Source: Siculibacillus lacustris
GTDB taxonomy: Bacteria > Pseudomonadota > Alphaproteobacteria > Rhizobiales > Ancalomicrobiaceae
Length of the DNA: 64,000 nucleotides
Direction of reading: 5' to 3'
NCBI RefSeq assembly: GCF_004328075.1
Contig: NZ_SJFN01000001.1
Location: forward strand, 1 to 64,000
This document shows, one piece after another, positions 4,612 through 18,911 of the stretch (within the stretch, counting starts at the first letter, position 1; every line of letters starts with the position of its first letter). A program made the position numbers and the translations under genes. Under the pieces are notes generated by a model. That model searched no databases. It saw only the letters and a list, made by a program, of their open reading frames with translations, and had not been told where the DNA came from.

Positions 4612-5673
4612 ATGAAGATGACCTTCCGTTGGTACGGCAAGGACGACCCGGTCACCCTCGACAACATCCGCCAGATCCCGGGCATGACCGGCGTCGTCTC
4701 GGCGGTCTACGACGTGCCGGTCGGCGAGGTGTGGCCGCCCGAGCGGATCCGCGCCCTGGTCGACGAGGTCCACGCCCATGGGCTCGCGCTCGAGGTGATC
4801 GAGAGCGTGCCGGTGCACGAGGACATCAAGCTCGGCAAGCCGAGCCGCGACCGGCTGATCGCCAACTACGGCGAGACGCTGCGCAATCTGGCGGCCTACG
4901 GCATCAAGGTGGTCTGCTACAACTTCATGCCGATGTTCGACTGGACCCGCACCACGCTCGACATGAAGCTGCCGGACGGGTCGTCGACCTTGGCCTTCGA
5001 CGCCGCGGCGATCGAGAAGATCGACCCCAAGCAGGGCATCCGTCTGCCCGGCTGGGACGCCAGCTATACGCCCGACGAGCTGCGCGATCTGCTCGCCGAA
5101 TATGCCCATGTCGACGAGGCGAAGCTGCGCGACAATCTCGCCTATTTCCTGCGCGGGGTGATCCCGGTGGCCAAGGAGGTCGGGATCGCCATGGCGATCC
5201 ATCCCGACGACCCACCGCGGCCGATCTTCGGCCTGCCGCGGATCGTCAAGAACCGCGAGGATCTCGCCCGCATCCTCGACGTGGTCGATGACCCGGCCAA
5301 CGGCCTGACGCTGTGCTCGGGGTCGCTCGGCTCGGACGTCGGCAACGACGTGGCGGCGCTGGTGCGCGAATTCGGCGGCCGCGGCCGCATCCACTTCGCC
5401 CATCTGCGCAACGTCAAGGTCGACGCCAGCGGCAGCTTCCACGAGACCGGTCACCGCTCGGCCGACGGCTCGCTCGACATGGCCGAGATCGTCCGCGCCT
5501 ATCACGACACCGGCTTCACCGGCTACGTCCGCCCCGACCACGGCCGGATGATCTGGGGCGAGACCGGGCGACCGGGCTACGGCCTCTACGACCGAGCGCT
5601 CGGCGCGGTCTATCTCGCCGGCCTGTGGGAAGGCATCGACAAGGTCACGCCGACCCCGGCCCCGGCCCCCTGA
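4612..5673 (+). CDS. uxuA: Mannonate dehydratase
   Basis: A 353-residue cytoplasmic UxuA (EC 4.2.1.8), which dehydrates D-mannonate to 2-keto-3-deoxygluconate. Family landmarks are FRWYG near the start, the [12 protein letters not shown] segment, [17 protein letters not shown] and HFAHLRNV; the Cys and His residues in these blocks correspond to the metal site. It is slightly shorter than the E. coli enzyme (394). The ATG at 4612 has GAGGAG about 10 bases upstream. A longer in-frame opening would overlap the permease and is rejected. Its product is the substrate class of KdgT, encoded further along. Confidence 0.95.
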
Positions 5674-5830
5674 TCCGACCTGCGGTGCGCCAACGCGCCT
5701 CGATCTGCGCCTCTCTCACGTGCTCCGCGACCGCCGTCGCGGGGCGCGTCGGCGTTTCGGCCGGGGGTCGCGGGACCGAGCGGCGTCCGCGACCGAGGGT
5801 CGCAGCGCGCGATCTGCGCGGAGTCGCTGC

Positions 5831-5921
5831 GCGTTTCGCGCATGATCGACACCCGTTTCCGCCTTTTGCGCCATCCCTCGCATTTCCGCACTTGATTTTT
5901 GCGCGATTTGCGCATTTTCTG
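5831..5921 (+). promoter_or_regulatory. Tandem TTTCGCGC/TTTTGCGC repeats, candidate DeoR operator
   Basis: The 351-base gap 5674-6024 holds no convincing gene. Its right half carries a run of short direct repeats on the + strand: TTTCGCGC (from 5834), TTTCCGCC, TTTTGCGCC, TTTCCGCA, TTTTTGCGCG, TTTGCGCA and TTTTC. They end about 100 bases before the acid-sugar kinase gene. DeoR-family repressors often bind such TTTC-type direct repeats, and a DeoR gene is third in the downstream operon. The link is inference; no clear -35/-10 was identified. Confidence 0.45.
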
Positions 5922-6024
5922 GAGCTGCACGCGCGGTTCGAGCGGCTTCGGCCGTCGCCGGATCCGGGCCCCGGCTCGCCGACGACCGGCCGCGCCGACC
6001 CTTCGCGAAGAGGACACGAGGACC

Positions 6025-7302
6025 ATGACCGCTCCCTGGCTGATCGTCGCCGACGACCTCACCGGCGCCGCCGACTGCGGCATCGCCTTCGCCGGAGCGG
6101 GCATCGCCACGGTGGTGGTGTGGGACGACGCGTCGCAGGGCGCGGTCACGGTCACCTCGGTCGACACCCGCAGCCGCTTCCTGCCGGCGGCGCTGGCCGC
6201 CGCCCGTCAGGTCGCGGCGACCACCGCCCGCCACACCCCCGGCACGCGGGTCTACAAGAAGATCGATTCGACCTTGCGCGGTCAGTTCGCCGCCGAACTC
6301 GCGGCCCAGCGCGACCTGCTCGCCGAACGTACCGCCGGCGCCGCGCCGATGGCGATCGTCGCCCCGGCCTTTCCGGCGACCGGACGGACCACCGAGGGCG
6401 GAAAAGTGCGGGTCGCCGGGCGGCCGCTCGAAGAGACGCCGCTGTGGGCGCGCGACCACACCTATGCGGACGCCGATCTGGTGGCGATCCTGGCCGGCGT
6501 CGGGATCGGCGCCGAGGCCCTGGATCTCGCGACGATCCGCGGCGATCGCGCCGATCTCGCCGCGACCTTCGCCGAGGCCCGCCGCCGCGGCGTCGCGGCG
6601 CTGGTCTGCGACGCGGTGACCGAGAGCGATCTCGCGGCGATCGCCGCCGCTTCGCTGCCGCTCGCCGATTCGGTGATGTGGGTCGGCACCGGCGGCCTCG
6701 CCAAACATCTGGCGGCGCTGATCGCCCCGAGCGCGGCGGCCGCTTCCGCGCTCGACGTCACCGCTGCCGGAGGGCCGGTGCTGCTGGTGATCGGCAGCGT
6801 CGCCGAGGCTTCGCGGTTGCAGGCGGCCGAACTGGTCGGCTCCGGCGCGGTCGAGGGTTTCGCCGTGGCGGCGGAGGATCTCTTCGCCGGCGAAGGATCG
6901 GCGGCGACCGCAGTGCTGCGCGCGACGATCGCCGCGCGGCTCGCCGCCGGCCGCGACGTGCTGGTCAAACTCGCCGACGATGCCGCCCCGGATCTGGCGC
7001 GCGGCACCGAGCTCGCCGATCTGTTCGCCGACTGGTTGGGGCCGGTGCTGCCGCAGGCCGGTGCCCTGGTGATGACCGGCGGCGACACCGCCTGTGCGCT
7101 GCTCGGGCGGATCGGCGCGGCCGGCATCCGGCTGGTCGCCGAGGTCGAGCCGGGCGTGCCGATCGGCCGGGCGCTGGGGCCTCTGTCCCTACCGGTGGTG
7201 AGCAAGGCCGGCGCCTTCGGCGACGCGCAGACGCTGGCGCGCTGCCTCTCCCATCTCAAACGCGACGCCCGGTCGCCGGCCGCGGCCGACGCCCGCTCCT
7301 GA
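6025..7302 (+). CDS. Four-carbon acid-sugar kinase family protein (DUF1537, DtnK-like)
   Basis: A 425-residue kinase of the DUF1537 family, which phosphorylates D-threonate, D-erythronate or related acid sugars. The N-terminal nucleophile/substrate domain opens with IVADDLTGAADCG, followed by KKIDSTLRG. The C-terminal nucleotide-binding domain contains MTGGDTACALL and KAGAFG near the end. The ATG at 6025 has AAGAGGA upstream and gives a family-normal length. A PdxA2-type dehydrogenase follows; DtnK plus PdxA2 is the established D-threonate route to dihydroxyacetone phosphate. Substrate identity is inferred from that pairing. Confidence 0.88.
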   Translation: MTAPWLIVADDLTGAADCGIAFAGAGIATVVVWDDASQGAVTVTSVDTRSRFLPAALAAARQVAATTARHTPGTRVYKKIDSTLRGQFAAELAAQRDLLAERTAGAAPMAIVAPAFPATGRTTEGGKVRVAGRPLEETPLWARDHTYADADLVAILAGVGIGAEALDLATIRGDRADLAATFAEARRRGVAALVCDAVTESDLAAIAAASLPLADSVMWVGTGGLAKHLAALIAPSAAAASALDVTAAGGPVLLVIGSVAEASRLQAAELVGSGAVEGFAVAAEDLFAGEGSAATAVLRATIAARLAAGRDVLVKLADDAAPDLARGTELADLFADWLGPVLPQAGALVMTGGDTACALLGRIGAAGIRLVAEVEPGVPIGRALGPLSLPVVSKAGAFGDAQTLARCLSHLKRDARSPAAADARS

Positions 7303-7359
7303 CTTATCCGACCCCTGCGCCGGGCCATGCCCGCCCGCGCCGAACCTTTCGAGGCCACC

Positions 7360-8367
7360 ATGCACAAGCCGATCATAGCCATCACCATGGGCGATCCCTG
7401 CGGCGTCGGGCCGGAGATCATCATGAAGAGCTTCGCCCATGACGAGCTCTATGCGATCTGCCGACCGGTGGTGATCGGCGACGCCGGGCGCCTGATTCGC
7501 GCCGGCGAAATCTGCGGCTCGACCCTGACCGTCCACGCCATCGAGGACCTCGCCGCGGCGACCTACGCCCCCGGCGTGGTCGAGGTGATCCAGGTCGGCG
7601 TGGTGCCGCCGGATCTGCCGTTCGGACAGGTGTCGGCCGAGGGCGGCGACGCCGCCTACCGCTACATCGAGCGGGCGGCGCGGCTGGCGGTGGCCGGCGA
7701 GGTCGGGGCGATCTGCACCGCACCGCTCAACAAGGCGGCGCTGCATGCCGGCGGCCATATCTTCCCCGGCCATACCGAGATGCTCGCCCATCTCACCGGC
7801 ACGCCGGAAGTCTCGATGATGCTGACCGCGCCGGGGCTGCGGGTGATCCACGTCACCACCCACATCGGTCTGATCGACGCGATCGCCCGCATCGACGCCG
7901 GACTGGTGCAGCGGACCATCGAACGCGCCCACGCCACCCTGGCCAAGGCCGGCATCGCCGATCCGCGCATCGGCGTCTGCGCGATCAACCCGCACGCCGG
8001 CGAGAACGGCCTGTTCGGCCACGGCGAGGAGGCGGAGAAGATCACCCCGGCGATCGAGGTGCTGCAGGCGCGCGGCTGGCGGATCGAGGGCCCGCTGCCG
8101 GCAGACACGCTGTTCTTCCGCGCCGGTCGCGGCGATTTCGACGTGGTGGTGGCGATGTACCACGACCAGGGCCACGGACCGGTCAAGGTGCTGGGCATCG
8201 AGAACGGCGTGAACATCACCGTGGGCTTGCCGGTGGTGCGCACTTCGGTCGATCATGGCACCGCCTTCGACATCGCCGGCACCGGCGTGGCCGACGAGCG
8301 CAGCCTGCTCGAGGCTCTGCGTCAGGCGGTGGCGCTCGCCGACGTGCGGGCCCAGGCCGCCGCCTGA
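7360..8367 (+). CDS. pdxA2: 4-phosphoerythronate/threonate dehydrogenase, PdxA2-like
   Basis: A 335-residue NAD-dependent, metal-binding dehydrogenase of the PdxA family. Motifs include ITMGDPCGVGPEI, TAPLNKAAL, FPGHTEMLAHLTG (metal His), INPHAGENGLFG and MYHDQGHGPVKVLG (metal His). Canonical PdxA acts in vitamin B6 synthesis. Paralogues beside a DUF1537 kinase instead oxidise D-threonate 4-phosphate with decarboxylation to dihydroxyacetone phosphate. The kinase lies 57 bases upstream, favouring the catabolic role. The start at 7360 is chosen over 7327 because it matches the family N-terminus. Confidence 0.9.
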   Translation: MHKPIIAITMGDPCGVGPEIIMKSFAHDELYAICRPVVIGDAGRLIRAGEICGSTLTVHAIEDLAAATYAPGVVEVIQVGVVPPDLPFGQVSAEGGDAAYRYIERAARLAVAGEVGAICTAPLNKAALHAGGHIFPGHTEMLAHLTGTPEVSMMLTAPGLRVIHVTTHIGLIDAIARIDAGLVQRTIERAHATLAKAGIADPRIGVCAINPHAGENGLFGHGEEAEKITPAIEVLQARGWRIEGPLPADTLFFRAGRGDFDVVVAMYHDQGHGPVKVLGIENGVNITVGLPVVRTSVDHGTAFDIAGTGVADERSLLEALRQAVALADVRAQAAA

Positions 8368-8390
8368 GCGCGGAGCGAACGGGAACACCG

Positions 8391-9158
8391 ATGAACCGCA
8401 CCGAACGTCGCCGTCGCCGTCTGCTCGAGCTGATCACCGCCGGCGAAGAAGACGTCGACGTGCTGGCCGCCGCGGTCGAGGTCTCGGCCTCGACGATCCG
8501 GCGCGATCTGGCGGCGCTCGCCGAGGACGGGCGGATCACCCGCACCTACGGCGGGGCGGTGCCGGCCCGTCCGCTCGCCGAACATCCGCTGACCACCCGC
8601 GAGGCCCTCCACCGCGCCGCCAAGGCCGAGATCGCCGAGCGAGCGCTCGATCTGGTCGAGGACGGCGACAGCCTGCTGCTCGACGCCGGCTCGACGGTGG
8701 CGGCCTTCGGCCGGCTGCTGGTCGGCCGACGGGTGCGGGTGGTGACCGGGAACATGGCGCTGGTGGCGCCGCTGATCCAGGCCGGGATCGAGGTGACGGT
8801 GCTCGGCGGGGTGGTGCGACCGCTCAGCATGGGGGTGGTCGGGCCGCTGGCCGAGGCGGTGTTGCGCCGGCTCACCGTCGACAAGGCCTTCCTCGGCGCC
8901 GACGGGGTGGTCGCCGGGCGCGGGCTTTGCGAAGCGCGCCCCGAACAGAGCGCCCTGAAGGAACTGATGATGGCCCAGGCCGCCCGCGTGGTGGTGCTCG
9001 CCGACGCCTCCAAGCTCGGCATGGCCGGGCAGCCGTGCTGGGCGCCGCTGCCCGGGGCCTGGACCCTGGTCACCGACGCGCAGGCCACCGACGAGCAGAT
9101 CCGGCCGTTCCTGCGCACCGCCGGGGTCGCGGTGCTGCGCGGGCCGCGGTCGACGTGA
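8391..9158 (+). CDS. DeoR/GlpR family transcriptional regulator
   Basis: A 255-residue repressor. The N-terminal winged helix-turn-helix (residues 5-60) has the DeoR pattern VDVLAAAVEVSASTIRRDLAALAEDGRITRTYGGAV. The rest is a sugar-phosphate sensor domain with SLLLDAGSTV, VVTGNMAL, VTVLGGVVR and the GADGV segment. Such proteins release DNA on binding a phosphorylated sugar or acid. It sits 23 bases after pdxA2, so it probably controls its own operon through the TTTC/TTTTGCGC repeats upstream of the kinase. The effector is unknown, plausibly a phosphorylated four-carbon acid. Confidence 0.9.
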   Translation: MNRTERRRRRLLELITAGEEDVDVLAAAVEVSASTIRRDLAALAEDGRITRTYGGAVPARPLAEHPLTTREALHRAAKAEIAERALDLVEDGDSLLLDAGSTVAAFGRLLVGRRVRVVTGNMALVAPLIQAGIEVTVLGGVVRPLSMGVVGPLAEAVLRRLTVDKAFLGADGVVAGRGLCEARPEQSALKELMMAQAARVVVLADASKLGMAGQPCWAPLPGAWTLVTDAQATDEQIRPFLRTAGVAVLRGPRST

Positions 9159-9284: not shown

Positions 9285-11216
<1,932 letters not shown>

Positions 11217-11336
11217 GGGAAGCCTGCGGCCGCCCCGACCCTGCACGTGGCAAAATCCAACGAGGGCGATGCATTCTGCTCGGCGCAGGCGCCGCGGCGA
11301 TCGACACATCCCTCTGGTCTCACAGCTCTTTTCTTC

Positions 11337-11354
11337 TTGGCACGGAGCTCGCTT
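11337..11354 (+). promoter_or_regulatory. Sigma-54 (-24/-12) promoter of kdgT
   Basis: TTGGCACGGAGCTCGCTT matches the sigma-54 consensus TGGCAC-N5-TTGC at all but one position. The invariant GG (11339-11340) and GC (11351-11352) are exactly 10 bp apart. Transcription would start near 11364, about 100 bases before the kdgT start. The gene immediately upstream encodes a sigma-54 activator with an intact GAFTGA loop, which makes the assignment unusually coherent. I found no convincing palindromic enhancer site in 11217-11336. Confidence 0.8.
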
Positions 11355-11462
11355 ACGCAGGCGCCAGTGGACCCGAACCGGCGCAACGACGCGGTTCGCC
11401 ACACCGCGAGGTCCTCCACGACGACGGGCCGGCGGACGGCCCATCTTCAGGAGGAAACGAAC

Positions 11463-12470
11463 ATGCAGATTCCGATCAAACGCGCGATCGAGAGAGTCCC
11501 CGGCGGGATGATGGTGGTGCCATTGCTGCTCGGGGCGATTCTCAACACCTTCTTCCCCGGCACGCCGAAGTTCTTCGGATCGTTCACCGGCGCCCTGTTC
11601 GCCGGCGGCATGCCGATCTTGGCGGCGTTCTTCATCTGCATGGGCGCCAGCATCGACATCAAGGCGACCCCCTACGTGCTCAAGAAGGGCGGTTCGCTGT
11701 TCGCCACCAAGATCATCATCGGCGCGGTGTTCGGGGTGATCCTCGGGCATTTCCTCGGCGAGGCACCGATCCAGGGCGGCCTGTTCGGCGGTCTGTCGAC
11801 GCTCGCGGTGGTCGCGGCGATGAACGACACCAACGGCGGCCTCTATTGCGCGCTGATGGGCCAGTACGGCCGCTCGCGCGACGTCGGCGCCTATTCGATC
11901 ATGTCGCTGGAATCCGGACCGTTCCTGACCATGACGACGCTCGGGCTGGCCGGCCTGTCGTCGTTCCCGTGGCAGACCATGCTCGGCGCCATCCTGCCGC
12001 TGTTGATCGGCATGGCGATCGGCAACCTCGATCGCGAGATGCGGCTGTTCCTGGGCAAGATCGCCCCGGGCCTGATCCCGTTCTTCGCCTTCGGCCTCGG
12101 TGCCGGCCTCGATCTCAGCAAGGTGTGGAGCGCCGGTCTGCTCGGCCTCGGCGTCGGCGTGGCGGTGGTGGCGATCACCGGTCTGGCGCTGTTCTTCGTC
12201 GACCGGGCGACCGGGGGCACCGGGGTCGCCGGCGTCGCCGCCTCCTCGACCGCCGGCAACGCCGCGGCGGTTCCGGCGATCATCGCCGGCGCCAACCCGG
12301 CCTATGCGGAAGCCGCGCAGAGTGCGACCATCCTGGTCGCCGCGGCGGTGGTGGTCACCGCCATCCTGGTGCCGCTGGTGACGTCCTTCGTGGCGTCGAA
12401 GTTCGGAACCATGACCGACGACGACGACGAGACCGCGGCGGAGACCGACACCGTGCCGGTCCATCCCTGA
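11463..12470 (+). CDS. kdgT: 2-keto-3-deoxygluconate permease
   Basis: A 335-residue integral membrane proton symporter of the KdgT family with about ten hydrophobic segments. Family landmarks are [17 protein letters not shown] at the N-terminus, [36 protein letters not shown] and [12 protein letters not shown]. The tail is acidic ([12 protein letters not shown]). A strong AGGAGGAAAC site precedes the ATG at 11463. It sits behind a sigma-54 promoter and a PrpR-like activator. It would import KDG or a related aldonate, complementing UxuA, which makes KDG inside the cell. Confidence 0.93.
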
Positions 12471-12476
12471 TCGCGA

Positions 12477-12507
12477 CGGTCGGCGGCGGATTCCTCGCCG
12501 CCGACCG
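12477..12507 (+). terminator. Stem-loop after kdgT
   Basis: A perfect 12-bp stem (CGGTCGGCGGCG with CGCCGCCGACCG) around a 7-base loop starts just after the kdgT stop. It lacks a T tract, so termination may be partial and leave some read-through into larA. Confidence 0.55.
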
Positions 12508-12555
12508 CTCCTCGTCGTCCGCCGCGACGCGTCCACCCGAGAACGGAAGCCCCCC

Positions 12556-13848
12556 ATGAACGACACGGTCAACATCGCCTACGGCCGCGGCCATCTCGCC
12601 GTCCGCCTGCCCGACGACGCCGAGGCGACGGTCATCCGCAAGGTCACCCTGCCCAAGCTCGGCGACCAGACGGCGGCGATCCGGGCGGCGCTCGAGGCCC
12701 CGATCGGTGCGGTCCCCTATTCGACCCTGGTGAAGGGCCGGAGGAGCGCCTGCATCCTGATCTGCGACATCACCCGGCCGGTGCCGAACCGGCTGTTCCT
12801 GCGGCCGATGATCGAAGGGCTGCTCGCCGCGGGCATGCCCGCCGCGGCGATCTCGGTGGTGGTGGCGACCGGCCTGCATCGCCCCAACGAAGGCGCCGAG
12901 TTGGCCGAGCTGGTCGGCGACCCCTGGGTGCTCGACACGGTGCGGGTCGAGAACCATTTCGCCCGCGACGACGACGCCCATGTCGACCTCGGCCCGACCT
13001 CGCGCGGCACGCCGGTCAAGATCGACCGCCGCTTCGTCGACGCCGATCTGCGCATCGTCACCGGGCTGATCGAGCCGCATTTCATGGCCGGCTGGTCGGG
13101 CGGGCGCAAGGTGATCGCCCCCGGCGTCGCCCATCACGAGACCATCCGCACCTTTCATTCCGCCCGCTTCATGGAAGATCCGCTGGCGGTCCAGTGCAAT
13201 CTGGTCGGCAATCCGCTGCACGAGGAACAGCTGGAGATCGTCGCCAAGATCGGCGAGGTCTACGCGCTCAACACCGTCCTCGACGAGGACCGCGATCTGG
13301 TCCACGTGACCTTCGGCGAGGTGATCGCCAGCCATCTCGCGGCGATCGAGTTCATCGCCGAATCCACCGCGATCGCCGTGCCGCGGCGCTTCAAGACCAT
13401 CGTCACCTCGTCGGCCGGCTATCCCCTCGACAAGACCTACTACCAGACGGTCAAGGGCATGGTCACGCCGATGGACATCCTGGAGCCGGGCGGCACGCTG
13501 ATCATCGCCTCGGAATGTTCGGAGGGCTTCGGCTCGCCGGAGTTCCGCGACGCCCAGGAGCGACTGGTGACCCTCGGACCGGAACGCTTCCTGGCCACGC
13601 TGAAGGCCAAGACCTTCGCCGAGATCGACGAGTGGCAGACCGAGATGCAGCTGAAGCCGATGCGGATGAGCCGCGTCCAGCTCTACACCACCGGCCTCGG
13701 CGCGGAAGAGCGGCGGATCACCGGCGTCGAACTGGTCGAGTCGGTCGAGGCGGCGATCCGGGCGAGCATCGATCGCGCCGGCGACGTCGCGGTGGCGATC
13801 ATCCCGGAAGGACCCTATGTGGTGCCGGTCCATGCCGCTCGAAGCTGA
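12556..13848 (+). CDS. larA: LarA-family nickel-dependent hydroxyacid racemase/epimerase
   Basis: A 430-residue LarA homologue using the nickel-pincer nucleotide cofactor to racemise or epimerise a 2-hydroxyacid by hydride transfer. The cofactor and catalytic residues are in place: His108 (TGLHRP), His175 and Lys185 (EPHFMAGWSGGRK, where Lys carries the covalent cofactor) and His201 (TFHS). These differ by at most one residue from the L. plantarum numbering. The complete cofactor set larC, larE, larB follows. The superfamily includes enzymes acting on lactate, malate, 2-hydroxyglutarate and D-gluconate. With kdgT upstream and glycerate kinase downstream, an aldonate or glycerate is more likely than lactate. 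Confidence 0.92.
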   Translation: MNDTVNIAYGRGHLAVRLPDDAEATVIRKVTLPKLGDQTAAIRAALEAPIGAVPYSTLVKGRRSACILICDITRPVPNRLFLRPMIEGLLAAGMPAAAISVVVATGLHRPNEGAELAELVGDPWVLDTVRVENHFARDDDAHVDLGPTSRGTPVKIDRRFVDADLRIVTGLIEPHFMAGWSGGRKVIAPGVAHHETIRTFHSARFMEDPLAVQCNLVGNPLHEEQLEIVAKIGEVYALNTVLDEDRDLVHVTFGEVIASHLAAIEFIAESTAIAVPRRFKTIVTSSAGYPLDKTYYQTVKGMVTPMDILEPGGTLIIASECSEGFGSPEFRDAQERLVTLGPERFLATLKAKTFAEIDEWQTEMQLKPMRMSRVQLYTTGLGAEERRITGVELVESVEAAIRASIDRAGDVAVAIIPEGPYVVPVHAARS

Positions 13849-15205
13849 ACCGCTGCACGTCCATCTCGATGCGGTCGGGGGGGCGGCCGGCGACATGTTC
13901 GTCGCCGCCCTGCTCGACGCGCTGCCGCATCTGCGGCCGCGGGTGTTCGCCGATCTCGCCGCGGTGCTGCCGGCGTCTTGCGGCCGACCGGTGCTGGTCC
14001 CCGGCACCAGCGGCGGCATCGCCGTCACCCGCTTCGGCCTGGACGGGCCGGAGCCGGAGGTGGCGCGAGAGCATGGGCATGGGCACGAGCACGCGCATGC
14101 GGCCGGACACGATCACGGTCACTCGCACGGGCACGGCCATGACCACCCCCACGGCCATGATCACAGCCACGACCATGCCCATGGCCACGATCACCCCCAC
14201 TCCCACGACGCCCCGTCCGGGCCGGCGCGGATCGTGCGCTTTCCGGAGATCGCCGCGATGATCGCGGCGGCCGACCTCGCCCCGGGCACCGGCGCGGCGG
14301 CGATCGCCATTCTGCGCCGCCTCGCCGAAGCCGAGAGCCGGATGCACGCGGTGCCGCTCGACGACGTGCATTTCCACGAGCTCGCCGATTGGGATTCGCT
14401 GATGGACGTGGTGGCGGCCGGCAGCCTGATCGCCGCGTTGCCCAACGCCACCTGGAGCGTCTCCGATCTGCCGCGCGGCCGCGGATTGGTGCGCACCGCC
14501 CATGGCCTGTTGCCGGTGCCGGCGCCGGCCACCGCGGCGATCCTCGGACGCTTCTCGTGGCGCGACGACGGCATCGGCGGCGAGCGGGTGACCCCGACCG
14601 GCGCGGCGATCCTCGCCCATCTGATCGACCCCGACACGCCGCATCCCGCCGCCGGGCGGCTCGGTGCGACCGGCACCGGCGCCGGCACGCGAACCCTGCC
14701 GGGGATGCCCAACATCCTGCGCGCCCTGGTGTTCACCGCCGCGCAGGAGGCGGCCCCGGCCGACGACGACGAGGTGATGGTGGTCACCTTCGACGTCGAC
14801 GACATGACCGGCGAGGAGATCGCCGTGGCGGCCGAGCGGCTGCGGGCCTGCGACGGGGTGATCGACCTGACGCTCGGCGCCCGCCAGGGCAAGAAGGGCC
14901 GCCCGGTCACCGACTTCCGCCTGATGGTCCGGCCCGCCGCTCTCGCCGCGGTCGGCGAGCGCTGTTTCCTGGAGACCGCGACGCTCGGCTTGCGTTGGCG
15001 CGCGGAACGGCGCATCTGCCTGCCGCGGGGCGCCGCGGCAGTGGTCGTCGACGGCCGCACCCTGGCGGTCAAGCGGGCGGAACGGCCCGACGGCCGCACC
15101 ACCGTCAAGGTGGAGAACGATTCCCTCGCCCCGATCGACGGGCTCGGCGCGCGGCGCCGGGCGCAGCGGGCGGCCGAGAACGACGCAGAGGAGACCGACG
15201 CTTGA
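13832..15205 (+). CDS. larC: Nickel-pincer cofactor nickel-insertion protein LarC
   Basis: A 457-residue CTP-dependent cyclometallase that inserts nickel into the pincer nucleotide. It starts with the typical LHVHLDAVGGAAGDMFVAALLDAL and ends with the substrate/CTP region (RQGKKGRPVTDF, KVENDSLAPIDGLGARRRAQ). A histidine-rich loop of about 45 residues near 80-125 (HGHGHEHAHAAGHDHGH...) is a likely nickel reservoir. In L. plantarum larC is split and joined by programmed frameshifting; here it is one uninterrupted frame. It overlaps the larA end by 17 bases. An ATG at 13817 is an alternative start. Confidence 0.9.
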   Translation: MPLEAEPLHVHLDAVGGAAGDMFVAALLDALPHLRPRVFADLAAVLPASCGRPVLVPGTSGGIAVTRFGLDGPEPEVAREHGHGHEHAHAAGHDHGHSHGHGHDHPHGHDHSHDHAHGHDHPHSHDAPSGPARIVRFPEIAAMIAAADLAPGTGAAAIAILRRLAEAESRMHAVPLDDVHFHELADWDSLMDVVAAGSLIAALPNATWSVSDLPRGRGLVRTAHGLLPVPAPATAAILGRFSWRDDGIGGERVTPTGAAILAHLIDPDTPHPAAGRLGATGTGAGTRTLPGMPNILRALVFTAAQEAAPADDDEVMVVTFDVDDMTGEEIAVAAERLRACDGVIDLTLGARQGKKGRPVTDFRLMVRPAALAAVGERCFLETATLGLRWRAERRICLPRGAAAVVVDGRTLAVKRAERPDGRTTVKVENDSLAPIDGLGARRRAQRAAENDAEETDA

Positions 15206-15999
15206 CGATCGCCATCCGCGAAGCGGCCCTGGTGGCCGCCCTCGACCGCCACCCCGCCCTGGCGATCGCCGTCAGCGGCGGCGTCGATTCGATGGTGCTG
15301 GCCCATGTCGGCCACCGCCTGTCGCAGGCCGCGACCACCGCGGTCCATGCGGTGTCGCCGGCGGTGCCGGCGCTGGCCACCGCCCGGGTCGAGGACCACG
15401 CCCGCCGCTTCGGCTGGCGGCTGCGGCTGATCGACGCCGGCGAGCTCGCCGATCCGGCCTATCGCGCCAATCCGGTCGACCGCTGTTTCTATTGCAAGAG
15501 CAACCTCTACAGCCGCATCCGCGAGGTGATCGGCGGATCGATCGCCTCCGGCACCAATCTAGACGATCTCGACGACTTCCGACCGGGCCTCGACGCGGCA
15601 CGACGGGCCGAAGTCGTGCATCCCTTCGTCGAGGCGGGGCTCGGCAAGGCCGACATCTACGAACTCGCCCGCGCCTATGGGCTCGACGACCTCGCGGCGC
15701 TGCCGGCTCAGCCGTGTCTGGCCAGCCGCATCGAGACCGGCATCGGCGTCGACGAGGACGCCCTGGCGTTCATCGAGGCGGTGGAGATCGAGCTCGCGGC
15801 GGCGCTGCCCGGCGCCGAGGCGCTGCGTTGTCGCATCACCGCGGCCGGCGTCTTCGCCGAATGCGCGCCGCTGCCCGAGGGGCCGCAGGCCGAAGCGATC
15901 GCCGCTCGGGTCGCGGCACTGGCGGCCGCCGCCGGGCGGCCGTTCGGCGGGCTCCGGGCCTATCGCCGCGGCGCGGCCTTCCTGCGGGACCTGCGATGA
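15202..15999 (+). CDS. larE: ATP-dependent sacrificial sulfur transferase LarE
   Basis: A 265-residue PP-loop enzyme that adenylates the pyridinium biscarboxylate and donates sulfur for the nickel pincer ligand. It has the PP-loop IAVSGGVDSMVLAHV near residue 25, the VDRCFYCKSNLY block, and Cys172 in QPCLASRI, at about the position of the sacrificial Cys176 of L. plantarum LarE. The start is a TTG at 15202 overlapping the larC stop, chosen because it gives the family-normal N-terminus. The CxxC in CFYCK could instead indicate a cluster-assisted variant. Confidence 0.9.
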   Translation: MTIAIREAALVAALDRHPALAIAVSGGVDSMVLAHVGHRLSQAATTAVHAVSPAVPALATARVEDHARRFGWRLRLIDAGELADPAYRANPVDRCFYCKSNLYSRIREVIGGSIASGTNLDDLDDFRPGLDAARRAEVVHPFVEAGLGKADIYELARAYGLDDLAALPAQPCLASRIETGIGVDEDALAFIEAVEIELAAALPGAEALRCRITAAGVFAECAPLPEGPQAEAIAARVAALAAAAGRPFGGLRAYRRGAAFLRDLR

Positions 16000-16661
16000 G
16001 AGAGTTCGAGATCGACTGGGACCGCGAAGCCCGCACCGGCAGTGCCGAAGCGATCCTGTGCGACGGCAAGAGCGTCGCGCAGATCGAGGCGATCCTCGCG
16101 GCGGCCGGCGATCGCCGTCTGTTGCTGACCCGTCTCGACGGGGAGAAGCACGACGCCCTGGCGGCGGCGACGCGGCGGCGGCTCGACCACGATCCGCTCT
16201 CGCGTACGGCGACCCACGGCGCGCCGGCGCCGGTGCGGCGCCCCGGGCCGGGGATCGTCTGCGCCGGAACCTCCGACCTGCCGGTGGCGCGCGAAGCGGC
16301 GCGCAGCCTCGCCTTCGCCGGCTGGGCGGCACCGATCGTCGCCGACGTCGGGGTCGCCGGGCTGTGGCGGCTCTTCGCCCGGCTCGACGAGATCCGCGGC
16401 TTCTCGGTGGTGATCGTGGTGGCCGGCATGGAGGGGGCGCTGTTCGGCGTGCTCGCCGGCCTGATCGCCGCGCCGGTGATCGCCGTGCCGACCTCGATCG
16501 GCTACGGCGTGGCGACCGGCGGCCGCGCGGCGCTGACCGGGGCGCTGGCCTCCTGTGCGCCGGGGCTGGTCACCGTCAACATCGACAACGGCTTCGGCGC
16601 CGCCTGCGCGGCGCTGCGCATCCTCGAGACCTTCCCGACCGCCCCTCACCCGATTCCATGA
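15996..16661 (+). CDS. larB: Pyridinium biscarboxylate mononucleotide synthase LarB
   Basis: A 221-residue enzyme that carboxylates nicotinic acid adenine dinucleotide as the first step of the nickel-pincer cofactor. The PurE-like C-terminal half has GIVCAGTSDLPVAREAA, VADVGVAGLWRL, VVIVVAGMEGALFGVLAGL and PVIAVPTSIGYGVATGG. The ATG overlaps the larE stop (ATGA), so larC, larE and larB are a tightly coupled unit. The order larA-larC-larE-larB supplies the full cofactor pathway apart from a nickel transporter, which is not in the window. Confidence 0.92.
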   Translation: MREFEIDWDREARTGSAEAILCDGKSVAQIEAILAAAGDRRLLLTRLDGEKHDALAAATRRRLDHDPLSRTATHGAPAPVRRPGPGIVCAGTSDLPVAREAARSLAFAGWAAPIVADVGVAGLWRLFARLDEIRGFSVVIVVAGMEGALFGVLAGLIAAPVIAVPTSIGYGVATGGRAALTGALASCAPGLVTVNIDNGFGAACAALRILETFPTAPHPIP

Positions 16662-16722: not shown

Positions 16723-17868
16723 ATGAAGATCGTGATCGCGCCGGATTCCTACAAGGAGAGCCTGTCGGCGCTCGAGGTGGCCCTGGAGATCGAAACCGGA
16801 TTCCGCGAGATCTTTCCCGATGCGGTCTATGTCCGCATCCCCGTCGCCGACGGCGGCGAGGGCACGGTCGACGCGATGGTCGCGGCGACCGGCGGCACCT
16901 CGATCGACACGCCGGTGACCGGCCCGCTCGGGCAACCGGTCGTGGCACGCTGGGGCCTGACCGGCGACGGCGGCACCGCGGTGATCGAGATGGCGGCGGC
17001 GAGCGGCCTGACGCTGGTCGCGCCGGACGCGCGCAATCCGCTGCTCACCACCACCTACGGGGTCGGCGAGCTGATCCGCGCCGCCCTCGACCAGGGCTCG
17101 CGGCGCTTCATCATCGGCATCGGCGGCAGCGCCACCAACGACGGCGGCGCCGGCATGGTCGAAGCGCTGGGCGGACGTCTGCTCGACGGCGAAGGCCGGG
17201 CGATCGTCCGCGGCGGCGGCGGCCTCGCGTCGCTCGCCCGCATCGACGTCGCCGGGCTCGACCCGCGGCTCGCCGAGTGCCGGATCGAAGTCGCCTGCGA
17301 CGTCGACAATCCGCTGACCGGGCCGCACGGCGCTTCGGCGACCTTCGGGCCGCAGAAGGGCGCGACCCCGGCGATGGTCGCCGAACTCGACGCGGCGCTC
17401 GCCCACTATGCCGCCATCATCCAGCGCGACCTCGGCAAGGCGGTGGCCGATCTGCCCGGCGCCGGTGCGGCCGGCGGCCTCGGCGCGGCGATGGTCGCCT
17501 TCCTCGGCGCCACCCTGCGGCCGGGGGCCGAAATCGTCACCACCGCGCTCGGCCTCGACGCGGCGGTCGCCGACGCCGATCTGGTGATCACCGGCGAAGG
17601 CCGGATCGACGGCCAGACGGTGCACGGCAAGACGCCGATGGGCGTGGCGCGGGTCGCCGCCCGCCACGGCAAGCCGGTGATCGGCATCGCCGGCTGCCTC
17701 GGCACCGGCTCGGAGCTGGTCCATGGCCACGACATCGCCGCGGTGTTCGCGGTGATGCGCCGGCCCTGCACGGTGGCCGAAGCGCTGGCCGACGCCGCCG
17801 TCAACGTCCGCACCGCGGCGCGCAACGTCGCCGCGGCGATCGCGCTGGGCCGCAGTCTCGCGCGCTGA
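16723..17868 (+). CDS. garK: Glycerate kinase (GarK/GlxK type)
   Basis: A 381-residue glycerate 2-kinase. Landmarks are MKIVIAPDSYKESLSALEVA at the N-terminus, VADGGEGTVDAMV, the FIIGIGGSATNDGGAGMVEALGG block, CDVDNPLTGPHGAS and VITGEGRIDGQTVHGKTP. It phosphorylates D-glycerate to 2-phosphoglycerate, feeding glycolysis. It begins 61 bases after larB with GGGAG upstream and appears to be the last gene of the cluster. A nickel racemase upstream could convert L- to D-glycerate for it; that is a hypothesis from position only. Confidence 0.92.
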   Translation: MKIVIAPDSYKESLSALEVALEIETGFREIFPDAVYVRIPVADGGEGTVDAMVAATGGTSIDTPVTGPLGQPVVARWGLTGDGGTAVIEMAAASGLTLVAPDARNPLLTTTYGVGELIRAALDQGSRRFIIGIGGSATNDGGAGMVEALGGRLLDGEGRAIVRGGGGLASLARIDVAGLDPRLAECRIEVACDVDNPLTGPHGASATFGPQKGATPAMVAELDAALAHYAAIIQRDLGKAVADLPGAGAAGGLGAAMVAFLGATLRPGAEIVTTALGLDAAVADADLVITGEGRIDGQTVHGKTPMGVARVAARHGKPVIGIAGCLGTGSELVHGHDIAAVFAVMRRPCTVAEALADAAVNVRTAARNVAAAIALGRSLAR

Positions 17869-17878
17869 GAGGCGCGCC

Positions 17879-18787
17879 TCAGCGGCCGCTCTCGCGGGCG
17901 AAGCGCCGGGCGACGTCGACGAAGGCCCGGAGTTTCGGCTGGGTCTGGGCGCGCGCCGGAAAATAGAGGTAGAGGCCCGGCCCGGTCGGCAGGTCGGCGG
18001 TGAGCACCCGCTCGAGCCGGCCGGCAGCGACGGCGTCGGCGACCAGCCCGAGCGGCAGGTAGGTGAGGCCCTGCCCGGCCTCGGCCAGGCGCAGCGCCAG
18101 ATCGGCGTCGTCGAGGGTGATCGCCCCCGGCACGTCGATCGACAGATCCCGGCCGTGCCGAGTGAACTCCCAGCGATAGACCGCGCCGGAGGTCGGGAAG
18201 CGGTAGCGCAGCGCCACGTGGCGGGCGAGATCTTCGGGCGCCGCCGGTCGGCCGTGGGCGGCGAAATAGGCCGGGGAACCGACCACCGTCCAGGTGATGT
18301 CGGCGGTGAGGGCCACGGCGATCATGTCGCGGGCGAGCGATTCGCCGATGCGGATGCCGGCGTCGTAGCCCTTCTCGGTGATGTCGAGGGTCCCGTCCTC
18401 GACGGCGATCTCGAGCGTCACGTCGGGACAGGCGGCGCGGAACCGCGCCAGCAGCGGCGCCAGTACCAAGGACACCGCCAGCCGCGGCACGCTCAGCCGC
18501 AACCGACCCATCGGCCGATCGCGGAAGCCGGCGAGCCCCTCGACCGCGGCGCGGATTTCGCCGGCCGCCGGCCCGAGGCGGGCAAGGAAGGCGGCGCCGG
18601 CCTCGGTCAGCCCGACCCGGCGGGTGGTGCGGGCGAACAGCGCCACGCCGAGGCGGGTCTCGAGGGTGCGGATCGCCTGGCCGACCGCGGTCGGGCTGAC
18701 CCCGAGGCTCGCGGCGGCGGCGGTGAAGGAGCGATGTTCGGCGACCGCGAGGAATTCGGTCAGCCCGTCGAAGGGGTCGATGCGCAT
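17879..18787 (-). CDS. LysR family transcriptional regulator
   Basis: A 302-residue LysR regulator. The N-terminal helix-turn-helix contains FLAVAEHRSFTAAAASLGVSPTAVGQAIRTLE, followed by LFARTTRRVGLTEAG, and the remaining about 200 residues form the periplasmic-binding-like effector domain. The start at 18787 (MRIDPFDGL) matches the family N-terminus; an ATG at 18817 would add ten residues. It is divergent from the aldo/keto reductase gene 124 bases away, a common regulator-target layout. The 3' end nearly meets garK, with a short palindrome (GAGGCGCGCCTC, 17869-17880) at the junction. Confidence 0.88.
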   Translation of the reverse strand: MRIDPFDGLTEFLAVAEHRSFTAAAASLGVSPTAVGQAIRTLETRLGVALFARTTRRVGLTEAGAAFLARLGPAAGEIRAAVEGLAGFRDRPMGRLRLSVPRLAVSLVLAPLLARFRAACPDVTLEIAVEDGTLDITEKGYDAGIRIGESLARDMIAVALTADITWTVVGSPAYFAAHGRPAAPEDLARHVALRYRFPTSGAVYRWEFTRHGRDLSIDVPGAITLDDADLALRLAEAGQGLTYLPLGLVADAVAAGRLERVLTADLPTGPGLYLYFPARAQTQPKLRAFVDVARRFARESGR

Positions 18788-18911
18788 CGGATCATGAAGC
18801 CCTGCTTCGCGGTTCATCCAGTCTAGCGCGGTTTATCTCCGCAATGCGAGGGGCGATGGTGAGCGGGTCCGGCGGGAGCGGCCCGCCGCGGCACCCTCGA
18901 GGAGGATCCCC

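Follow-up and report, generated by a model that had tools for sequence, protein, structure and literature searches.

Between a gene for a sigma-54-dependent activator and a gene for a KdgT-family permease lies a short stretch of DNA (TTGGCACGGAGCTCGCTT, 11337–11354, forward strand), and the question arises whether it serves as a sigma-54 promoter, which genes it would switch on and which compound these genes would handle. The initial annotation had taken it for a near-perfect sigma-54 promoter that controls kdgT and possibly the lar genes. The question reaches beyond this locus, as in vivo roles and true substrates are open for most LarA-family nickel racemases. It was pursued here in the window, i.e., the whole stretch of 64,000 nucleotides (64 kb) that was analyzed, in the 5.02-Mb genome and in related loci of other bacteria.

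Genes on either side of the element

Downstream of the element, kdgT, larA, larC, larE, larB and a glycerate kinase gene form a compact run on the forward strand. The permease gene (11463–12470; PF03812, 1.3e-113) is followed by a larA homologue for an NPN-dependent 2-hydroxyacid racemase (12556–13848), larC for nickel insertion (13835–15205, start codon uncertain; TIGR00299 and NF052512 above cut-off), larE for a sacrificial sulfur transferase (15202–15999; TIGR00268 above cut-off) and larB (15993–16661, start codon uncertain; NF033503 above cut-off). The run ends with the gene for a glycerate kinase of the GarK/GlxK family (16723–17868; PF02595, 1.8e-152; TIGR00045 above cut-off), behind which a LysR gene is encoded on the opposite strand (17879–18817). 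The larA product combines the Lar_N and LarA_C domains with the two catalytic histidines, H108 and H175, and a W360-Q361 pair, and with larB, larC and larE alongside it has the features of the LarA superfamily. LarB, LarC and LarE would make the nickel-pincer cofactor for LarA. Lactate racemase was rejected as its default name, the score being 341.9 bits against the NF033504 equivalog cut-off of 460 bits. LarC contains a loop with a long histidine-rich stretch (window positions 14070–14205, HGHEHAHAAGHDHGHSHGHGHDHPHGHDH...), which plausibly binds nickel.

Upstream of the element, the activator gene (9285–11216, forward strand) was characterized by Pfam domains, motifs and orthologues. It encodes a sigma-54 activator (EBP) with the domain order PrpR_N, PAS, AAA+ and HTH_8, in which GAFTGA is found at residue 402 and the Walker A motif GESGTGKE at residue 355. 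Labelling it a PrpR orthologue was considered and dismissed: it scores 359.4 bits against the TIGR02329 cut-off of 499.2 and 327.2 bits against 703 for NF011953, its neighbours are lar genes and kdgT rather than prp genes, and the architecture is all that it has in common with PrpR. Directly 5′ of the activator gene (4642–9158), a UxuA-type mannonate dehydratase, a DUF1537 acid-sugar kinase (DtnK-like), a PdxA2-like dehydrogenase and a DeoR regulator are encoded, probably a four-carbon acid-sugar locus.

The −24/−12 element and its candidate activator sites

The −24/−12 element itself, TGGCACG-N4-TCGC (core TGGCACGGAGCTCGC, 11338–11352, forward strand), was examined by pattern and weighted scans, by shuffling and by comparison with counterparts in relatives. 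Its GG (11339–11340) and GC (11351–11352) are separated by 10 bp, as in TGGCAC-N5-TTGC, and its sole mismatch to this sequence is a C instead of a T at −14. No other site on either strand of the window comes within one mismatch of the consensus, and in the weighted scan the element is the best −24/−12 match there and the only site at 5/7 or better; among 2000 dinucleotide-shuffled versions of the 246-bp intergenic region, 3 reached its score. Sequence and scans thus bear out the initial annotation as regards the element and its position between the gene for the GAFTGA activator and kdgT. From spacing alone, a transcription start is predicted at 11364 on the forward strand, 12 bases 3′ of the C of the −12 element, giving a kdgT leader of 99 bases in which an AGGAGG ribosome-binding site (11449–11454) lies 8 bases 5′ of the ATG at 11463. 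Neither a sigma-70-like promoter nor a terminator was detected in 11150–12600, the spaces between the genes included. The genome contains rpoN in a single copy (TIGR02395, 434.6 bits, above cut-off).

By itself, the −24/−12 motif is weak evidence. Genome-wide scans were pattern-based, the weighted scan being that of the 64-kb window, and TGGCACN5TYGC occurs 16 times in the whole 5.02-Mb genome compared to 11 times for the reversed pattern; because of this control, the motif alone proves little. The initial annotation had named a top-ranked hit in a genome scan with a sigma-54 weight matrix as support; the element ranks first in the weighted scan of the window, and its genome-wide pattern count is not exceptional. 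Proximity to activator genes is more telling: an EBP gene is located within 3.5 kb of 6 of the 16 matches and of none of the 11 controls (Fisher p = 0.027; about 2e-6 against chance placement), and the window element counts among these six. The remaining five EBP-linked sites (C2:259055, C5:44656, C12:72372, C13:67524 and C65:3914, given as contig and position) are likely to represent further activator-target pairs.

This and related promoters contain, 5′ of the −24 element, a palindrome resembling TGYGGYAAAATRCCRCA in two copies with a spacing of 21–23 bp. The first automated dyad search had returned GC-rich noise only; the palindrome was then spotted by eye and tested with a matrix. Scored with a matrix derived from the other loci and not from the window, candidate site 1 (CGTGGCAAAATCCAACG, 11246–11262, forward strand) comes first among the 63,984 positions of the window. 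In a leave-one-locus-out analysis, the top-scoring site of each orthologous promoter was placed first or second within its locus, ranks that are somewhat optimistic because the sites had been chosen by eye before the matrix was built. The centre of site 1 lies 85 bp before the −24 GG, compared to 82–85 bp in relatives. Candidate site 2 (CGATGCATTCTGCTCGG, 11267–11283), 21 bp after site 1, is weaker; its matrix score of 4.3 is low, yet it is the second best of the region and adheres to the conserved 21-bp/64-bp spacing. When three mismatches were allowed, the upstream site alone showed no genome-wide excess (53 versus 47 in the control). A GAFTGA-bearing activator is thus combined with candidate upstream sites at a distance that appears helically consistent.

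From these elements a mechanism can be proposed. The EBP, a one-component regulator, would bind the two palindromic sites and, once its PrpR_N domain has bound a small hydroxy acid as the presumed ligand, its GAFTGA-containing AAA+ domain would remodel the sigma-54 polymerase, from which one transcript spanning kdgT-larA-larC-larE-larB-garK is expected to result. What speaks against it are the C at −14, the weak second upstream site and the fact that neither the element nor the upstream site is unique genome-wide. One could regard the −24/−12 match as a product of chance in a GC-rich genome, with kdgT expressed by read-through from the upstream genes or from another promoter, a reading to which the −14 mismatch, a genome count barely above the reversed-pattern control and the failure to find a terminator 3′ of the EBP gene would lend themselves. 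Against chance speak the top rank of the upstream site and its position at the distance expected, as do equivalent sites in nine related promoters, where the upstream sites are arranged similarly.

Recurrence of promoter, activator and genes in other bacteria

Beyond its own genome, no orthologue of the EBP was found in the same family (15 genomes), class (385 genomes) or order (397 genomes), nor was an orthologue of KdgT found in the 385 genomes of the class. The module is thus rare and has probably been acquired horizontally. An alignment scan for LarA across 84,980 species yielded 80 LarA loci. EBP orthologues that are 65–68% identical to the window protein are present in four Alphaproteobacteria (L059, L079, L083 and L143), each adjoining kdgT and larACEB. 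On the Rhodovastum atsumiense plasmid (L059) the order is the same as in the window, activator-kdgT-larA-larC-larE-larB-glycerate kinase. In Rhodospirillum UBA1311 (L079), Rhodoplanes tepidamans (L083) and a Rhodospirillales MAG (L143), too, kdgT and lar genes are accompanied by the activator or a relative. In Accumulibacter/Propionivibrio (L081, L082), kdgT and lar genes are linked to a divergent PrpR_N activator (36%). The loci differ in gene order, and some of them have a distant KdgT paralogue (36%) as the permease.

Counterparts of the −24/−12 element precede kdgT, larA or the first gene of the operon in eight related loci. Among the alphaproteobacterial loci, they are located at L059:2392 (TGGCATATCGCTTGC), L079:5519 and L143:5740, and in Rhodoplanes at L083:6909 directly before larA and at L083:14829 before kdgT, with scores that were matched by 0–3 of 2000 shuffles each. 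A site also precedes the operon in the beta-proteobacterial loci L080, L081, L082 and L084. The distance from the −24 GG to the nearer copy of the palindrome amounts to 61–64 bp in the window, L143, L079, both L083 promoters and L080 and to 73 bp, about one helical turn more, in Rhodovastum; in L081 and L084 two candidate copies are retained, but farther away. Direct alignment of the intergenic DNA of the window with that of Rhodovastum was uninformative, the regions not being alignable. The promoter elements that they have in common are consequently not residual similarity, and since the pattern repeats in DNA that is otherwise not alignable, a chance match is most improbable. Promoter and activator sites recur with the same spacing and at the same genes in unrelated bacteria, and the motif is for this reason very probably a real promoter.

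The composite of −24/−12 element and upstream sites was encountered in 7 of the 80 LarA loci. Each of these has KdgT, and among 72 loci without KdgT none has the composite. In a LarA tree, all composite loci fall into one well-supported clade of 12 rows, of which three members have no composite: L078 and L086 are without KdgT, and in L085 kdgT is broken. In the latter, a Gemmatimonadetes MAG, the kdgT gene before larA is apparently split into three frames (5982–6900), and neither an activator gene nor a composite site is present. Other Proteobacteria (L055/L069 and L058/L070) have kdgT-larA pairs that are only distantly related (about 36% identical) and are joined by larB, larC and larE, with no strong −24/−12 site; the partnership of KdgT and LarA seems to be older than, or independent of, sigma-54 control.

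In all nine related promoters position −14 is a T, and calling the window element, with its C, near-perfect was generous. Its −24/−12 score is the lowest of the ten promoters (5.75 versus 6.25–7.0), and one of its upstream sites is weak. The promoter could hence be ancestral and real in the relatives but weakened here, with low or lost sigma-54 activity and the operon expressed by read-through. We consider this improbable, as every gene is intact, GG and GC are retained, and the EBP-linked site C12:72372 of the same genome (TGGCACGGGCTTCGC) likewise has TCGC.

What the sequences and their comparison show is the promoter element, the conserved sites with their geometry, the syntenic activator and the gene run, and sigma-54 control of kdgT-larACEB-garK appears well supported on this basis. 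The best explanation of the whole, which we hold with good confidence, is that 11338–11352 acts as a sigma-54 promoter through which the adjoining EBP switches on this set of genes. For kdgT, the proposal made in the initial annotation is strongly supported by the conserved promoter, the enhancer-type sites in fixed geometry and the syntenic activator. For the lar genes, 'possibly' can be raised to 'very probably', given the compact same-strand run and the situation in Rhodoplanes, where larA-larC-larE-larB and kdgT-activator are separate units, each with its own perfect −24/−12 site, and where the larA promoter also has an upstream site.

Candidate substrates and known systems

The name KDG permease suggests a substrate that the data do not favour. 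The window protein belongs to PF03812, but its 382.3 bits stay below the TIGR00793 equivalog cut-off of 453.8, so that KDG permease was rejected as a default name; its closest homologues outside the module (70–76% identical) are mostly encoded in D-threonate-type operons (DtnK-PdxA2), and a KdgT that imports D-threonate is known (PMC10079672). The substrate label of the initial annotation is thus not upheld. KDG is not necessarily what the permease carries, and the neighbouring genes would rather favour uptake, racemization and phosphorylation of glycerate. We lean towards a glycerate pathway in which the permease would import glycerate, LarA would interconvert the L- and D-forms and the kinase would phosphorylate the product. 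Glycerate is our first choice because of the recurring glycerate kinases, the dehydrogenases of L081 and the W360-Q361 pair of LarA. A glycerate kinase is encoded in seven of the nine composite loci (window, L059, L079, L081, L082, L084 and L143) and was not seen in L080 and L083 within the locus stretch examined; L081 additionally has a GarR-type dehydrogenase and a D-2-hydroxyacid dehydrogenase. The glutamine Q361 corresponds to that of LarAH43, an enzyme highly active on glycerate in which the residue matching the second one of the W-Q pair is also Q (PMC11770544). The kinase of L143 is of the MOFRL family, unrelated to GarK, and in Rhizobium (L068) larACEB is followed by a MOFRL glycerate kinase gene without kdgT. 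Next to larACEB, MOFRL therefore replaces or parallels GarK in these two loci, a non-orthologous replacement in the same operon context.

Our second choice is a four-carbon acid, because DtnK, PdxA2 and DeoR are encoded directly upstream (6022–9158) and a relative of KdgT imports D-threonate, as experimentally confirmed for Ralstonia/Cupriavidus (PMC10079672). KdgT would then import threonate or erythronate, LarA would epimerize it at C2, and DtnK and PdxA2 would degrade the product. In line with this, close KdgT relatives (70–74%) reside in DtnK-PdxA2 operons, LarA-type enzymes epimerize 4-deoxy-threonate/erythronate (PMC11770544), and a DUF1537 kinase gene is added in three beta-proteobacterial loci. 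It is nevertheless unlikely that such an acid is the substrate: neither DtnK nor PdxA was seen at the Rhodovastum, Rhodospirillum and Rhodoplanes modules within the stretch examined, PdxA is encoded in none of the 80 LarA loci, and a glycerate kinase recurs, an unrelated family even taking its place. The kdgT-dtnK-pdxA2 operons of Burkholderiaceae and Roseomonas, with a KdgT 70–74% identical to that of the window, have a DeoR regulator, no strong −24/−12 site by the permease gene and no larA.

Tentatively, we envisage a mobile module in which a PrpR-like activator may sense glycerate (or a C4 acid) and control, via sigma-54, a nickel-pincer-dependent glycerate racemase pathway. If true, a glycerate-active LarA enzyme would thereby gain a physiological role, and the operon would be the first under sigma-54 control that we have found for a nickel racemase. 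An inducible, conserved sigma-54 switch with a ligand-binding activator also offers a handle, as the inducer of the activator is probably the substrate. With the palindrome, a group of PrpR-like activators that had been unassigned receives a concrete candidate motif for binding, and KDG permease should not be the default label for KdgT-family permeases, which travel with different acid-degrading modules.

Known LarA/LarAH superfamily systems with LarB, LarC and LarE (PMC7583248, PMC11770544) share the full cofactor set and the catalytic histidines with the window, and the closest solved relative of the window LarA is the broad-spectrum racemase 9eid/9eia; in contrast to these systems, the window LarA, with its score below the lactate racemase cut-off, is linked to a permease, a glycerate kinase and sigma-54 control. 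PrpR and prpBCDE for propionate catabolism resemble the window in the PrpR_N sensor, the GAFTGA-bearing AAA+ domain, the Fis-type HTH and the sigma-54 promoter of an adjacent catabolic operon, but the target genes differ and the window EBP remains below the PrpR equivalog cut-off (359 versus 499 bits). The nearest parallel for kdgT comes from regulon reconstruction in Clostridiales, where XduR and sigma-54 control kdgT-uxaA (PMC6615313). There, too, a one-component EBP, an upstream motif and a sigma-54 promoter serve a gene for a KdgT-family permease, whereas the partner is uxaA (altronate dehydratase family) rather than a nickel racemase gene, the phylum is another one, and the motif published for XduR, TGT-N10-12-ACA, sets it apart from the EBP with TGYGGYAAAATRCCRCA described here.

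The initial annotation had considered sigma-54 control of a KDG permease and a nickel racemase unusual. For the racemase, a search of open-licence literature turned up no operon of this kind under sigma-54 control, and papers on the sigma-54 regulons of Salmonella, Desulfovibrio and bacteria at large listed no kdgT or larA gene. For kdgT, 'unusual' was overstated in view of XduR and of an Escherichia albertii plasmid; the nickel racemase operon is an interesting target of such control. On this plasmid (NZ_CP043261.1; L063, position 5212), the −24/−12 site TGGCGCAGTAATTGCT is found just 5′ of uxaA-uxaA-kdgT, followed by a gene for a PrpR_N-type activator, probably another case of a sigma-54-controlled kdgT. 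A perfect −24/−12 site (TGGCACAAATCTTGCA) also occurs on a Priestia megaterium plasmid (L065, position 6152), where it is located between a PrpR_N activator gene and a fumarate-hydratase-type gene pair.
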